A stretch of DNA of 64,000 nt from Verrucomicrobiota bacterium (GTDB taxonomy: Bacteria > Verrucomicrobiota > Verrucomicrobiia > Opitutales > Opitutaceae): positions 1 to 64,000 of the forward strand of contig JACRKC010000093.1 in NCBI GenBank assembly GCA_016235555.1, in the 5' to 3' direction. This document shows, in pieces, positions 2,772 through 43,417 of the stretch (positions are counted from its first letter, which is position 1; each line of letters begins with the position of its first letter). Both the position numbers and the translations under genes were made by a program. The notes under the pieces are model-generated. The model searched no databases, was not told where the DNA came from, and was given only the letters and a program-made list of their open reading frames with translations.

Positions 2772-2849
2772 GGTATGTGATGCCCGACCCAAATCGGACT
2801 CCCGAGAGAAGGGGCGCTCGCGTCGGCACCCCACGGCGCTGGTCGCGGC

Positions 2850-2951
2850 GCCTGCTGTTTCCTTCGTCGGCATGATCCGTTTCAGGTTCAGAGGGTCGAG
2901 TGGCCGGTCGCGCCACAGTCTCAGCCTTCCGCGGAAGACACCCCTACAGGC
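2850..2951 (-). promoter_or_regulatory. TPP riboswitch (THI element)
   Basis: On the minus strand the closing stem GCCTG/CAGGC (2951-2947 with 2854-2850) encloses the conserved thi-box segments in order: a GGGGTGTC stem, GGCTGAGA, then ACCCTCTGAACCTGA, GGATCATGCCGACGAAGGAA. CTGAGA and the GAACCTGA...GGATCATGCC...GAAGGAA series are the diagnostic bases that hold the pyrimidine and pyrophosphate of TPP. It precedes the TonB-dependent receptor start by 79 bases. That tail could sequester the start region or form a terminator; I do not see an obvious U-tract, so translational control is the more likely mode. Confidence 0.93.
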
Positions 2952-3023
2952 AAGGCGCACGAAATGCGCCACCGACACACGCGCAAGCGGAAACTCTGTC
3001 AGCACCCGAAGCCCGGGTGTAGG

Positions 3024-40071: not shown

Positions 40072-40908
40072 TCACCACCAACTCGGCTTCTCGTCCCCTG
40101 GCAGATATTCGCCATTGGCTTCGAGGATGCGGCGGGCGTGCGGCGCGAGTTGCTCGGCGGGGACTTTGGTCACCTTGCCGTCAATGTATTGAATCACCGG
40201 CAGACCGAAGCGCAGATTTTCGAGGACGGCGTCGGCATAGGCTTTTCGCATCGCCCGCATCGAGGCGCGTGTCACAGCGTCCGCAATGAACGGAACAGGC
40301 TCTTGCACAACGGTCGGTGGGTGCTCGGGCATGAAGTTCACACTGGCCGCCTGCTCGATGATCGCAAGTCTCGGCGCGTCGGAGATCGAGAAAAACCCAT
40401 TCTGCTCCTGCGCGACCAAGTGCGGTTCCGGTCGCGTGTTGTCGTAGAGTTTCCAGTGGTTCAGTAGCGGCCGATAGAGCGTCGCGAGATTCCGCACGCC
40501 GAGATGAAACCGCCGCTGCTGCACATCGTCGGGAATGTCGTGTCCGCCCTTCGCGACGCGCTCCTGCACGCGTTCCCGCGTGATGTCCAAATCCGGGATC
40601 CAAAGAAAATCCAACCGCACGTAGTATCCGGCCGCCCGCATCGCCTTCAGCAGCGGCGCATACGCGCGACCCGACAGCGTGGTCTCGAACGCGAAATCCT
40701 CTCCGCGCACCGCGAGCTCGCGCAATCGCTTCAACATAATACGCCCCGCTTCGAACGCCGCACCTGCCGGCGCAAACGGCGACAACCCCGCCGCGATCAT
40801 GTCGGCGTTCACGAATTCGCGCGTGCGCATCTCTTCCGGCAGGAAACGCCGCGCATAGGTCGTCTTGCCCGCGCCGTTTGGGCCCGCGATGACGAAGAGG
40901 TTCGGCAC
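40072..40908 (-). CDS. Zeta-toxin-like P-loop kinase
   Basis: 278 residues from a GTG at 40908; the codon before it in frame soon reaches a stop, so the start is well fixed. Walker A GPNGAGKTTYARRFLPEE at residues 9-26, then REFVNADMIAAGLSPFA, GEDFAFETTLSGR, RVQERVAKGGHDIPDDVQQR, the zeta-type arginine region. This family includes UDP-N-acetylglucosamine kinases (zeta/PezT toxins) and broader housekeeping P-loop kinases. No antitoxin-like gene is adjacent on the same strand, so it may be a solitary chromosomal member. Divergent from the ilv leader. Confidence 0.8.
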   Translation of the reverse strand: MPNLFVIAGPNGAGKTTYARRFLPEEMRTREFVNADMIAAGLSPFAPAGAAFEAGRIMLKRLRELAVRGEDFAFETTLSGRAYAPLLKAMRAAGYYVRLDFLWIPDLDITRERVQERVAKGGHDIPDDVQQRRFHLGVRNLATLYRPLLNHWKLYDNTRPEPHLVAQEQNGFFSISDAPRLAIIEQAASVNFMPEHPPTVVQEPVPFIADAVTRASMRAMRKAYADAVLENLRFGLPVIQYIDGKVTKVPAEQLAPHARRILEANGEYLPGDEKPSWW

Positions 40909-41059
40909 GACATTGACTCAAGCAGCGTCCGCACCACGCGTGCAAGCTCCGCCGCGATCTCCACCAGCCTCGCATCATATTGCTCAACTCGTCCGCTCCT
41001 TGCGCCGATGCTACCCTAGGCGCCACGCGCGCGTGGCCGGGCCGCGGGCGACTGCGACC

Positions 41060-41089
41060 TTGACACGCGCGCGCCCGCGCTCCTTTGTC
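41060..41089 (+). promoter_or_regulatory. Possible ilv promoter
   Basis: A perfect TTGACA lies at 41060-41065. A recognisable -10 box is lacking (CTTTGT or TTTGTC at the right spacing), so only the -35 supports it. It would start transcription just before the leader peptide. Confidence 0.35.
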
Positions 41090-41103
41090 CGCCGCACTCA
41101 CTC

Positions 41104-41199
41104 ATGATTTCCCCGCGCACAACGTCCACGCTCGCGAGCCTCGTGCTCTCGATTCTCGTCGTCGTTGTCGTCGTTACCGGCGCACCGCGAGGGTCCTGA
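41104..41199 (+). CDS. ilvL: ilv leader peptide
   Basis: A 31-residue ORF too short for routine annotation. Of its 31 residues 13 are Ile, Leu or Val, and codons 19-24 are six Val codons in a row (41158-41175), preceded by LVLSIL. It ends in TGA 15 bases before a strong terminator hairpin and 109 bases before ilvB. A ribosome short of charged Val, Leu or Ile tRNA would stall on it. The 3' end of the ORF itself contains the antiterminator strand (see the attenuator). No clear Shine-Dalgarno is visible. Confidence 0.88.
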   Translation: MISPRTTSTLASLVLSILVVVVVVTGAPRGS

Positions 41200-41250
41200 G
41201 CGAACACACTTTCGCCCCCTCCGGTGCCAGCACCGGAGGGGGCTTTTTAT
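41183..41250 (+). terminator. ilv attenuator: terminator and competing antiterminator
   Basis: The terminator stem is a perfect 13 bp: 41214-41226 (GCCCCCTCCGGTG) with 41231-41243 (CACCGGAGGGGGC), loop CCAG, then a TTTTTATTT tract. The leader ORF's last codons at 41183-41193 read CACCGCGAGGG, almost the same as the terminator's 3' arm, so they can pair with the 5' arm at 41217-41226 (one bulged C) and block the terminator. Stalling at the upstream Val codons would favour that pairing; a ribosome reaching the stop would cover it and let termination happen. Classic transcription attenuation. Confidence 0.88.
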
Positions 41251-41307
41251 TTGGCCCCGTTCGGGTCCGGCGTCGGAGGTGGCACTCACACCACCATCCA
41301 CCGCACC

Positions 41308-43077
41308 ATGAAAACGACCACCGGAGCCGCCCTCCTGCGCACCTTGCTCGAGCGCCAGGGCATCCACACGCTCGCCGGCATCCCCGGCGGCGCCATCCTG
41401 CCGTTCTACGACGCCCTGCACGGCAGCTCGATCCGCCACATCCTCGCGCGCCACGAACAGGGCGCCGGCTTCATCGCCCAAGGCATGGCCCGCGCCACCG
41501 GCCGCGCCGCCGTCTGCGTCGCCACGTCCGGCCCCGGCGCCACGAATCTCCTCACCGCGATCGCCGACGCGCGCCTCGACTCCGTGCCGCTCGTCGCGCT
41601 CACCGGGCAGGTGCCGCAGGCGCTCATCGGCACGGATGCGTTTCAGGAAGTCGACACCTACGGCCTCACGCTCCCGATCACGAAACACAACTTCCTCGTG
41701 CGCTCCGTCGCCGAATTGCTCGAGACGGTGCCGCTCGCGTTTCAACTCGCCGAGTCCGGCCGCCCCGGCCCCGTCGCCATCGACGTGCCGAAGGACGTGC
41801 TCAACGCGAGCATCACCGTCGGCGCGCTCCCCGAGCCCGGCCGCGTGCAACCGCCGCCACGCTGCGCCGATGCACCCATCGACGAACTCGCCGCGCGCCT
41901 TCGCGCCGCGCACCGCCCCATCCTCTACCTCGGCGGCGGTGTGATCGGCGCCAACGCTTCCGCGCTCGCCCGCGAACTCTCCCGCCGCCTCGACGCGCCC
42001 GTCGTGTCCACGCTCATGGCCCTCGGCGCGATGCCCGACGACGACGAACGTTTCATGGGCATGCTCGGCATGCACGGCAACAAGGGCACCAACCTGCTCC
42101 TGCAGGAGTGCGACCTCCTCTTCGCCATCGGCGCGCGCTTCGACGACCGCGCCACCGGCAAGGCCGCGGAGTTCTGCCCGCGCGCCACCATCGCGCACCT
42201 CGACATCGACCGCGCCGAGGTTGGCAAAATCAAATCCACCGCGCTCGCCCTCATCGGCGACGCCGCCGACATTCTCCGCCGCCTCCTCGATCGGCTCGGT
42301 AGCGACGAGCACCAGCGAGTCGAACGCCGTCCACTCGCTGGCGCTCGTGGCTACGACACTCCCATGTCACGCCCCGCGTGGCGGGCCCGCGCCACCATGC
42401 TCCGCGACGCGCACCCGCTGCATTGCCCGCCGCGCGCCGAGGATCCGCTGCATCCGCTCAACCTCATCGGGTTTCTCTCCGAGCAGCTCCCCGCCGACGC
42501 CATCATCACGACCGACGTGGGCCAGCACCAGATGTGGGTCGCGCAGGCGTATCCATTCCGCCAGCCGCGCACGCTGCTCACGTCCGGCGGACTCGGCACG
42601 ATGGGCTTCGGCGTCCCCGCCGCGATCGGCGCCGCGCTCGCGTGCCCCGGCCGCCGCGTCGCCTGCGTGAGCGGCGACGGCTCCATCCTCATGAACCTCC
42701 AGGAACTCGCCACGCTCGCCGAACTTGATCTGCCCGTCGCGATCCTGCTTTTCAACAACGCCCATCTCGGCCTCGTGCGCCAGCAACAGGAGTTGTTCTA
42801 CGGCGGCCGCTACTCCGCATCGCGTTTCGATCGGACACCCGACTTCGCCGCCATCGCGCGCGGCTTCGGCCTTCGCGGCGTCCGCCTCGATCCCGGCGGC
42901 GATCCGCTCGCCGATCTCGCCGATGCCCTCGCCCAACCCGGCCCGTGCCTCATCGACATCCCGATCCACGATCAAACCAACGTCTACCCGATGGTGCCGC
43001 CCGGCGCCGCGAATCACCAGACGCTCACCGCCCCCGAGCTCGAACCGGCCCTCGCGACCTCCTCCTCCCATGACTGA
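41308..43077 (+). CDS. ilvB: Acetolactate synthase, large subunit
   Basis: 589 residues from ATG 41308. ThDP-enzyme motifs: ARHEQGAGFIAQGMARATGR (catalytic Glu), ATSGPGATNLLTAIADA, GTDAFQEVDTYGLTLPITKH, FAD-domain VIGANASALA, and the C-terminal ThDP site GDGSILMNLQELATLAEL...FNNAHLGLVRQQQELFYGGR. It joins two pyruvates, or pyruvate and 2-oxobutyrate, in branched-chain amino-acid synthesis. Between the FAD and C-terminal domains, residues about 331-349 (RVERRPLAGARGYDTPM region) are encoded by a palindromic repeat inserted in frame at 42299-42354. The leader and attenuator lie directly upstream, and ilvN overlaps its stop. Confidence 0.95.
   Translation: MKTTTGAALLRTLLERQGIHTLAGIPGGAILPFYDALHGSSIRHILARHEQGAGFIAQGMARATGRAAVCVATSGPGATNLLTAIADARLDSVPLVALTGQVPQALIGTDAFQEVDTYGLTLPITKHNFLVRSVAELLETVPLAFQLAESGRPGPVAIDVPKDVLNASITVGALPEPGRVQPPPRCADAPIDELAARLRAAHRPILYLGGGVIGANASALARELSRRLDAPVVSTLMALGAMPDDDERFMGMLGMHGNKGTNLLLQECDLLFAIGARFDDRATGKAAEFCPRATIAHLDIDRAEVGKIKSTALALIGDAADILRRLLDRLGSDEHQRVERRPLAGARGYDTPMSRPAWRARATMLRDAHPLHCPPRAEDPLHPLNLIGFLSEQLPADAIITTDVGQHQMWVAQAYPFRQPRTLLTSGGLGTMGFGVPAAIGAALACPGRRVACVSGDGSILMNLQELATLAELDLPVAILLFNNAHLGLVRQQQELFYGGRYSASRFDRTPDFAAIARGFGLRGVRLDPGGDPLADLADALAQPGPCLIDIPIHDQTNVYPMVPPGAANHQTLTAPELEPALATSSSHD
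42299..42354 (+). repeat. Palindromic repeat inside ilvB, in frame
   Basis: Arms GTAGCGACGAGCACCAGCGA and (reverse complement sense) GTAGCCACGAGCGCCAGCGA match at 20 of 22 positions, separated by 12 bases. The same arm, GTAGCCGCGAGCGCCAGCGA, occurs at the ilvN stop at 43414. Here it is translated as a charged loop of about 19 residues between domains. Confidence 0.85.
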
Positions 43078-43417
43078 ACCCCTCTCCACCGCCTCATCCC
43101 CCAACGTAGAGTGTAACCCAATAGGTTACACTCGCCCGGCGCCCACCGTGCTCGAACTCCGCGTGCGCAATCATCCCGGCACGATGTCGCACATCACGGG
43201 CCTCTTCGCGCGCCGCGCGTTCAACCTCGACGCGATCGTCTGCGCCCCCGAGGGCGGCGGCGAAACCAGCCGCATGCTCCTCCTCGTCGCCGACGAACCC
43301 CGCCTCGAACAAGTCGAACGCCAGCTCGCCAAGCTTCACGACGTGCTCTCCGTCGACGTGCGCGTTGACCTCGGGCCGGCGTTTTTCACGCGGCTTTTCG
43401 CTGCGAAGCCGGCGTAG
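43070..43417 (+). CDS. ilvN: Acetolactate synthase, small (regulatory) subunit
   Basis: 115 residues from ATG 43070, overlapping the ilvB stop by 8 bases. The ACT domain is plain: LELRVRNHPGTMSHITGLFA, RRAFNLDAIVCAPEGG, SRMLLLVADEPRLEQVERQL, AKLHDVLSVDVR. It binds valine for feedback inhibition and stabilises the large subunit. Codons 14-22 (VECNPIGYT), before the ACT core, are made by a 25-base palindrome at 43109-43133, and the TAG stop falls inside a second repeat starting at 43414. Length is that of the short single-ACT form. Confidence 0.92.
   Translation: MTEPLSTASSPNVECNPIGYTRPAPTVLELRVRNHPGTMSHITGLFARRAFNLDAIVCAPEGGGETSRMLLLVADEPRLEQVERQLAKLHDVLSVDVRVDLGPAFFTRLFAAKPA
43109..43133 (+). 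repeat. 25-base palindrome inside ilvN
   Basis: Arms GAGTGTAACC and GGTTACACTC around CAATA. A 25-base palindrome with the same core (GTAACCCA...GGTTAC) and different tips stands between genes at 53671-53695. Confidence 0.85.

Follow-up and report, generated by a model that had tools for sequence, protein, structure and literature searches.

Does the short ORF upstream of ilvBN in this Opitutaceae genome belong to a transcription attenuator, and if so, to which amino acid would it respond? The ivbL leader of Escherichia coli has long been known as an attenuator; the mechanism is thus a familiar one, and what is added here is its occurrence in an order of the Verrucomicrobiota, the Opitutales. 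The answer developed below is that a ribosome-mediated transcription attenuator very probably couples ilvBN expression to the supply of charged tRNA-Val. We infer the response to valine from sequence, and the element is accordingly called a conserved candidate valine attenuator. It lies in a 64,000-nt stretch of DNA that is referred to as the window.

The ilvBN Operon and its Leader Region

The features discussed are as follows.

40072-40908, minus strand: divergent gene beside the attenuator, zeta-toxin-like ATPase (Pfam AAA_33/zeta toxin)
41060-41065, plus strand: putative -35 element TTGACA; 16 of 17 window-clade loci have a like box whose first base is 38-50 nt from the leader ATG
41083-41089, plus strand: putative weak -10 region CTTTGTC, placed from spacing only
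41104-41199, plus strand: ORF of the leader peptide, 31 codons and a stop; all 28 Opitutales loci with intact upstream DNA have a Val-rich leader in this position
41158-41175, plus strand: control codons GTC GTC GTT GTC GTC GTT (six Val), in codon choice unlike the ilvB genes
41183-41193, plus strand: predicted antiterminator strand, lying in the last leader codons and mimicking the terminator 3' arm; pairing and geometry computed
41214-41226, plus strand: terminator 5' arm, common to terminator and antiterminator (folding, terminator scan, duplex computation)
41231-41243, plus strand: terminator 3' arm (folding, terminator scan, duplex computation)
41244-41252, plus strand: U-tract TTTTTATTT (sequence, terminator scan)
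41308-43077, plus strand: ilvB, acetohydroxyacid synthase (AHAS) large subunit, AHAS-I type (NCBIfam, identity to E. coli IlvB)
43070-43417, plus strand: ilvN, small subunit, overlapping the last 8 bases of ilvB (NF006036, identity to the E. coli protein)

The two structural genes are closest to the E. coli ilvBN type. The best NCBIfam match of ilvB is NF006016 (PRK08155), at 790 bits and under the cut-off of 870, with TIGR00118 above its own cut-off; that of ilvN is NF006036 (PRK08178), at 101 bits and under the cut-off of 128. The PRK08155 and PRK08178 models are ones we take to stand for AHAS I. The window IlvB is 54% identical to E. coli IlvB, with which it groups against five other acetolactate synthases (SH-aLRT 99), and IlvN is 47% identical to its E. 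coli counterpart over 89 columns. The source genome (8.03 Mb, 98.6% complete) carries a second ilvB, 43% identical. Since the gene at 40072-40908 is on the opposite strand, the terminator does not serve it. Elsewhere in the window (2842-2955, minus strand) there is a TPP riboswitch at the Rfam gathering score.

The leader ORF translates as MISPRTTSTLASLVLSILVVVVVVTGAPRGS followed by a stop, with Leu-Val-Leu and Ile-Leu codons ahead of the six Val codons; a short ORF with a codon run for a product amino acid thus stands upstream of the operon. The terminator (41214-41243) has 13 pairs, 11 of them G-C, and a loop of 4, and is followed directly by the U-tract. A terminator scan returned two terminator-like sites in 421 bp against a shuffle mean of 0.3, the second being a 5-pair stem, and the region 41080-41260 folds better than its shuffles (z = -3.64; 1 of 200 as good). 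The mimic, CACCGCGAGGG, matches the 3' arm CACCG-GAGGG with one extra C. Its predicted duplex with the 5' arm has an energy of -17.7 kcal/mol (p = 0.03 against dinucleotide shuffles), and by computation this antiterminator pairing and the terminator exclude each other. The initial annotation had described a 31-codon ORF with six consecutive Val codons, a 13-bp terminator with a U-tract, and an 11-base mimic able to pair with the 5' arm; all three were found at the positions given, the mimic as an imperfect copy with one bulged base. It had also placed the DNA in a probable member of the Verrucomicrobiota, with which the affinity to named relatives agrees.

Conservation in the Opitutales

Leaders were scored by a strict rule, requiring an ORF with seven V/I/L in nine codons plus a terminator, and by a loose one, with six in nine. 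In the 61 genomes examined from the family, 22 loci of the AHAS-I type reach at least 55% identity; L025, which begins at a contig end, was set aside, and the remaining 21 together with a further seven from a sample of the phylum make up 28 Opitutales loci with intact upstream DNA. All 28 have a Val-rich leader, with an intrinsic terminator between it and the first structural gene, 27 by the strict rule and one (L014) only by the loose. Among the Opitutales loci placed in the tree described below, 25 of 26 satisfy the strict rule and 26 of 26 the loose. The AHAS-I type itself is sparse: at E <= 1e-145, of 387 genomes sampled from the phylum 13 have it, and every one of these belongs to the window's order.

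The same combination is missing from control sequences. None of eight regions upstream of ilvB paralogues has a V-rich leader with a terminator, nor do any of 66 regions upstream of hisG, trpE, leuA, or cimA, a set that includes cimA loci with Ile leaders that the V/I/L rule misses. Shuffling window-clade upstream regions gave a leader with a terminator in 0 of 400 cases, and a leader ORF alone in two. The reading first proposed, an ilv attenuator layout ahead of ilvBN, had been staked in part on conservation of the leader in relatives; with 28 of 28 Opitutales loci having leader and terminator, it passes this test and gains support.

Pairing of the mimic was examined by computing the duplex between the bases after the amino-acid run and the terminator 5' arm. 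Within the clade of 17 loci that includes the window (the window clade), 16 do better than shuffled mimics at p < 0.05, the sole failure being L014 (p = 0.15). Cognate mimic and arm pairs also surpass swapped ones, both within the window clade (p = 0.006) and over sets of 35 and of 22 representatives (0 of 5000 permutations as good as cognate in either). In five loci (L013, L015, L016, L018, and L020) the 5' arm reads CTCTGG instead of CTCCGG and the mimics read AGAGGG: the antiterminator pair stays Watson-Crick, and the terminator keeps a G-U. On the tree this change is one event.

Outside the window clade the test gives mixed results. It is passed at p < 0.05 by one of five loci in another Opitutales clade, four of eight from gamma- and betaproteobacteria, two of ten from Spirochaetota, four of seven of ilvG type, and the one from Fibrobacterota, with L039, L162, and L163 left out as doubtful; none of six loci in a second Opitutales clade passes, and none of six from Enterobacteriaceae, E. 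coli ivbL included. Since ivbL is a known attenuator, the post-run mimic test is no general proof of attenuation, and the strong post-run mimic predicted here characterizes the window clade and certain other clades rather than every one.

Ribosome Position and Predicted Switching

The RNA ahead of the ribosome was folded at equilibrium rather than kinetically, with the leading edge of the ribosome assumed to be 12 nt downstream of where the A-site codon begins. Whichever of the Ile, Leu, or first five Val codons the stall is at, the window leader then has 12.8 expected antiterminator (2:3) pairs; a stall at the sixth Val codon leaves 10.8, and a ribosome at the stop codon 0.0, where the terminator is at 13.0 pairs. 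The pattern holds throughout the window clade: in 17 of 17 loci, stalls in the Val run keep all or nearly all 2:3 pairs, with fewer at the last codon of the run in several, and a ribosome at the stop codon leaves 0.0-0.5 of them with the terminator (3:4) pairing nearly complete. Between run and stop, 2:3 pairing partly returns in two loci (3.1 pairs in L012, 4.4 in L016). In silico, then, and given the assumed footprint, a ribosome at the control codons frees the antiterminator strand and one at the stop codon blocks it. The same folding takes E. coli ivbL from 6.2 pairs to 0.0, and a Serratia ilvG-type leader from 8.8 to only 2.1 at the stop.

In the absence of any ribosome, 15 of the 17 window-clade leaders keep at least 7.7 2:3 pairs before the 3' arm is made. 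A classical 1:2 protector is therefore not evident, and no classical super-attenuation is predicted.

These computations suggest the following sequence of events. When charged tRNA-Val is scarce, a translating ribosome would stall in the Val run, leaving the mimic free to pair with the terminator 5' arm, and RNA polymerase would presumably read through into ilvBN. When valine is plentiful, the ribosome would reach the stop codon and cover the mimic, and the 13-bp terminator would form.

Putative Promoter and Translation Start of the Leader

Transcription of the leader probably begins just upstream of its start codon. Of the 17 window-clade loci, 16 have a TTGACA-like box that begins 38-50 nt ahead of the leader ATG; 15 of these boxes are exact TTGACA, and the other, in L010, is TTGATC at a similar distance and escaped the search rule. 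In a third Opitutales clade such a box is found at 39-41 nt in four of five loci; in the second clade the boxes found are at least 68 nt away or not before an ATG. A consensus promoter scan gave no full sigma-70 site at the leader and no good -10 after the box, and the start site is for this reason inferred: if the putative -10 region is used, it would be at about 41095-41098, giving a 5' UTR of some 7-8 nt. Across the clade, the spacing of the box leaves roughly 1-14 nt.

Shine-Dalgarno pairing is never stronger than -1.7 kcal/mol in the 16 window-clade leaders scored, nor was a Shine-Dalgarno sequence seen before ilvB or ilvN in the window. Among long ORFs of the window, 15 of 34 have a strong one near one of their first three ATGs, by a crude survey in which ORFs were picked by GC3 and some false frames are included. 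Given an ATG 38-50 nt past the box and no Shine-Dalgarno sequence, the leader mRNA of the window clade is probably nearly leaderless, and ribosomes would load on it without such a sequence. This predicted near-leaderless, Shine-Dalgarno-free leader is new in the present analysis.

Comparison with Known Leaders

The E. coli ilvBN leader (ivbL, b3672) shares with the window a Val-rich peptide, an intrinsic terminator, a related AHAS-I ilvBN operon, and a computed ribosome-position switch of a like kind. The peptides can be similar to their ends: ivbL finishes in VVVVVGNAP, and L010 of the window family in VVVTNAPRGV. By eye only, the terminators of the second Opitutales clade (L024, L123) closely resemble that of E. 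coli, and the window's less so. Unlike ivbL, the window leader has no Shine-Dalgarno sequence and a very short predicted 5' UTR, and its post-run antiterminator duplex is stronger (-17.7 against -9.2 kcal/mol).

There is precedent for a leaderless leader in Corynebacterium, where leader-peptide attenuation also precedes ilvB (the ilvB-II motif): a passage of PMC11857589 discusses the ilvBNC leader mRNA as leaderless, and a title cited in PMC10272879 (Morbach 2000) has it formed without a ribosome binding site. The operon there is ilvBNC and the phylum another, and the likeness drawn here is one of description. The ilvB-OMG and Leptospira ilvB motifs were re-read in 2023, according to a portion of PMC10272879, as upstream ORFs rich in branched-chain amino acid (BCAA) codons before ilvB, the former in “various bacterial phyla” and the latter in Leptospira. 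They too resemble the window by description; its leader has no Rfam match at gathering score. Open-licence literature yielded no description of an attenuator in Verrucomicrobiota, which is weak evidence of absence.

Which Amino Acid is Sensed?

At least three consecutive Val codons are present in 17 of 17 window-clade leaders (L012 has three), and their Leu and Ile content varies, leaving the Val run as the conserved part. The suggestion made at the outset, that valine is the main residue sensed and Leu and Ile are minor, is consistent with this. The leader could instead sense BCAA starvation in general, Leu and Ile along with Val. The Leu-Val-Leu and Ile-Leu codons before the run point that way, as do Leu-rich runs in some relatives (LGLLLLVVVVL in L009, for example), and by folding, stalls at the Leu and Ile codons likewise leave the mimic free. 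Against constant Val runs and inconstant Leu and Ile, general sensing seems unlikely, although it deserves to be taken seriously.

Codon choice within the run is distinctive. In the 17 window-clade leaders the run codons are GTC (68), GTA (16), GTT (14), and GTG (14), and in the ilvB genes of 16 of the same loci GTG (302), GTC (196), GTT (33), and GTA (2); these counts come from related loci, for which a p value has no meaning. GTG is thus avoided in leader runs, and GTA is used though nearly absent from the ilvB genes themselves. Selective tRNA charging, the theory of which is treated in an excerpt of PMC1183508, could be a cause; so could avoidance of GTG starts or of G-rich RNA.

Other Readings of the ORF and Terminator

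The short ORF might alternatively encode a small hydrophobic membrane protein, with the terminator merely limiting ilvBN constitutively, and by eye the hydrophobicity of the LVLSILVVVVVV stretch would suffice for a membrane segment. Among relatives, however, the Val run is kept and the length and remaining residues of the peptide vary; the common APRGS-like ending is explained by its complementarity to the terminator 5' arm, and differs in the subclade where that arm has changed; and some members of the family have a like layout, with Ile for Val, ahead of cimA (below). Together these make a functional membrane protein very improbable. Control by some other cis-regulator (a T-box, riboswitch, or protein-bound leader), which could drive a terminator ahead of a biosynthetic operon, is extremely improbable: no Rfam family reaches gathering score in 40900-41400, where a permissive scan gave 14 matches, all below it, the TPP riboswitch match being elsewhere in the window, and the stretch from putative start to terminator is largely taken up by the ORF.

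Distribution Outside the Opitutales

Leaders of a like kind stand ahead of related operons in Enterobacteriaceae and in some Spirochaetota. Among the matches listed (80 named ilvB-like loci of at least 595), 19 meet the strict rule and 61 do not; ten of these 19 are beside AHAS-I-like genes, and nine beside the gammaproteobacterial ilvG-like type. In the tree set, a leader and terminator precede AHAS-I ilvB in six of six Enterobacteriaceae, eight of 12 other gamma- and betaproteobacteria by the strict rule and nine by the loose, and ten of 19 Spirochaetota by the strict rule and 12 by the loose, the loose matches L039, L158, and L162 being doubtful; three of the 12 and seven of the 19 fail even the loose rule. 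A Fibrobacteres MAG (L049) has both leader and terminator, and a Myxococcales MAG (L046) has a leader and no hairpin followed by four T; both are on long branches whose place in the tree is unsure.

In this quick tree, rooted, AHAS I is one clade (99), and the Opitutales fall into three groups, two of them within a clade of Proteobacteria (98). For the label Opitutales the free trees need three changes, and the starred branches force two. The AU test does not reject one clade for all Opitutales (p = 0.079), and multiple transfers are not claimed. From its patchy presence, the ilvBN operon, of an AHAS-I lineage common with E. coli ilvBN, was probably gained within the Opitutales, and it is plausible that the attenuator travelled together with it. 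Attenuation needs no protein regulator; an operon could therefore carry it into a new host and have it function immediately.

A Candidate Isoleucine Attenuator Before cimA

The source genome has a second candidate, outside the window: an Ile-codon leader (L181; contig G000:C38, minus strand, upstream of 173961-175484), MTITRANSIAIRSIIIGCAPGRGEMA followed by a stop, with an CCCCGGGC terminator. The gene downstream is cimA, citramalate synthase by TIGR00977 (680 bits, cut-off 450), a match to which is found in 83 of 100 genomes of the family. By an Ile rule chosen after two cases had been seen by eye, and as a count without shuffled control, 27 of the 70 family cimA loci scanned have upstream an Ile-rich leader and a terminator; in two of the 27 (L179 and L287) the scan picked another hairpin, and the CCCGGG arm follows. 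L255 is negative for an Ile leader. In many cimA leaders the final codons repeat the sequence of the terminator arm; 19 of the 27 pass the mimic test at p < 0.05, and the source genome's own has p = 0.08. A -35-like TCGACA is present 36-54 nt ahead of the leader start at 15 of the 27 loci. The open-licence literature gave no account of attenuation at cimA, again weak evidence of absence.

Other amino acid operons were surveyed in up to 19 relatives (leuA/cimA, 25 loci; hisG, 17; trpE, 24; ilvC, 18; ilvD, 21). Nothing convincing was seen before trpE, ilvC, or ilvD; the ilvC locus L308 is negative, and L305, with 32 bases upstream, was not counted. One hisG locus (L193, G009:C24) is preceded by an ORF ending MSLHHHHHRR at its stop and then a strong terminator, and no His-rich ORF was found by rule at the 16 others. 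In three ilvD (dihydroxy-acid dehydratase) genes (L344, G003:C1:4523927-4526140; L339, in G010; L340, in G009), an in-frame insert of about 180 residues separates the N- and C-terminal parts; that of L344 has no Pfam match.

It is quite possible, and we put it forward tentatively, that AHAS-I operons with their attenuators have passed as self-contained regulated modules from one phylum to another (Opitutales, Proteobacteria, Spirochaetota, perhaps Fibrobacterota and Myxococcota), the Opitutales form being near-leaderless and Shine-Dalgarno-free with a strong post-run antiterminator, and that a separately built Ile-codon attenuator controls cimA in the same cells, splitting the branched-chain pathway into valine- and isoleucine-sensing switches.

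Implications

An attenuator-like system is a conserved device in an order of Verrucomicrobiota, and these loci test the reach of this kind of coupled transcription and translation, leaderless leaders included. The candidate Ile-codon attenuator would regulate cimA, a gene for which the open-licence literature gave no attenuation report. In the Opitutales that carry the ilvBN leader, the valine-making genes would probably switch on only when valine is short, as in E. coli.
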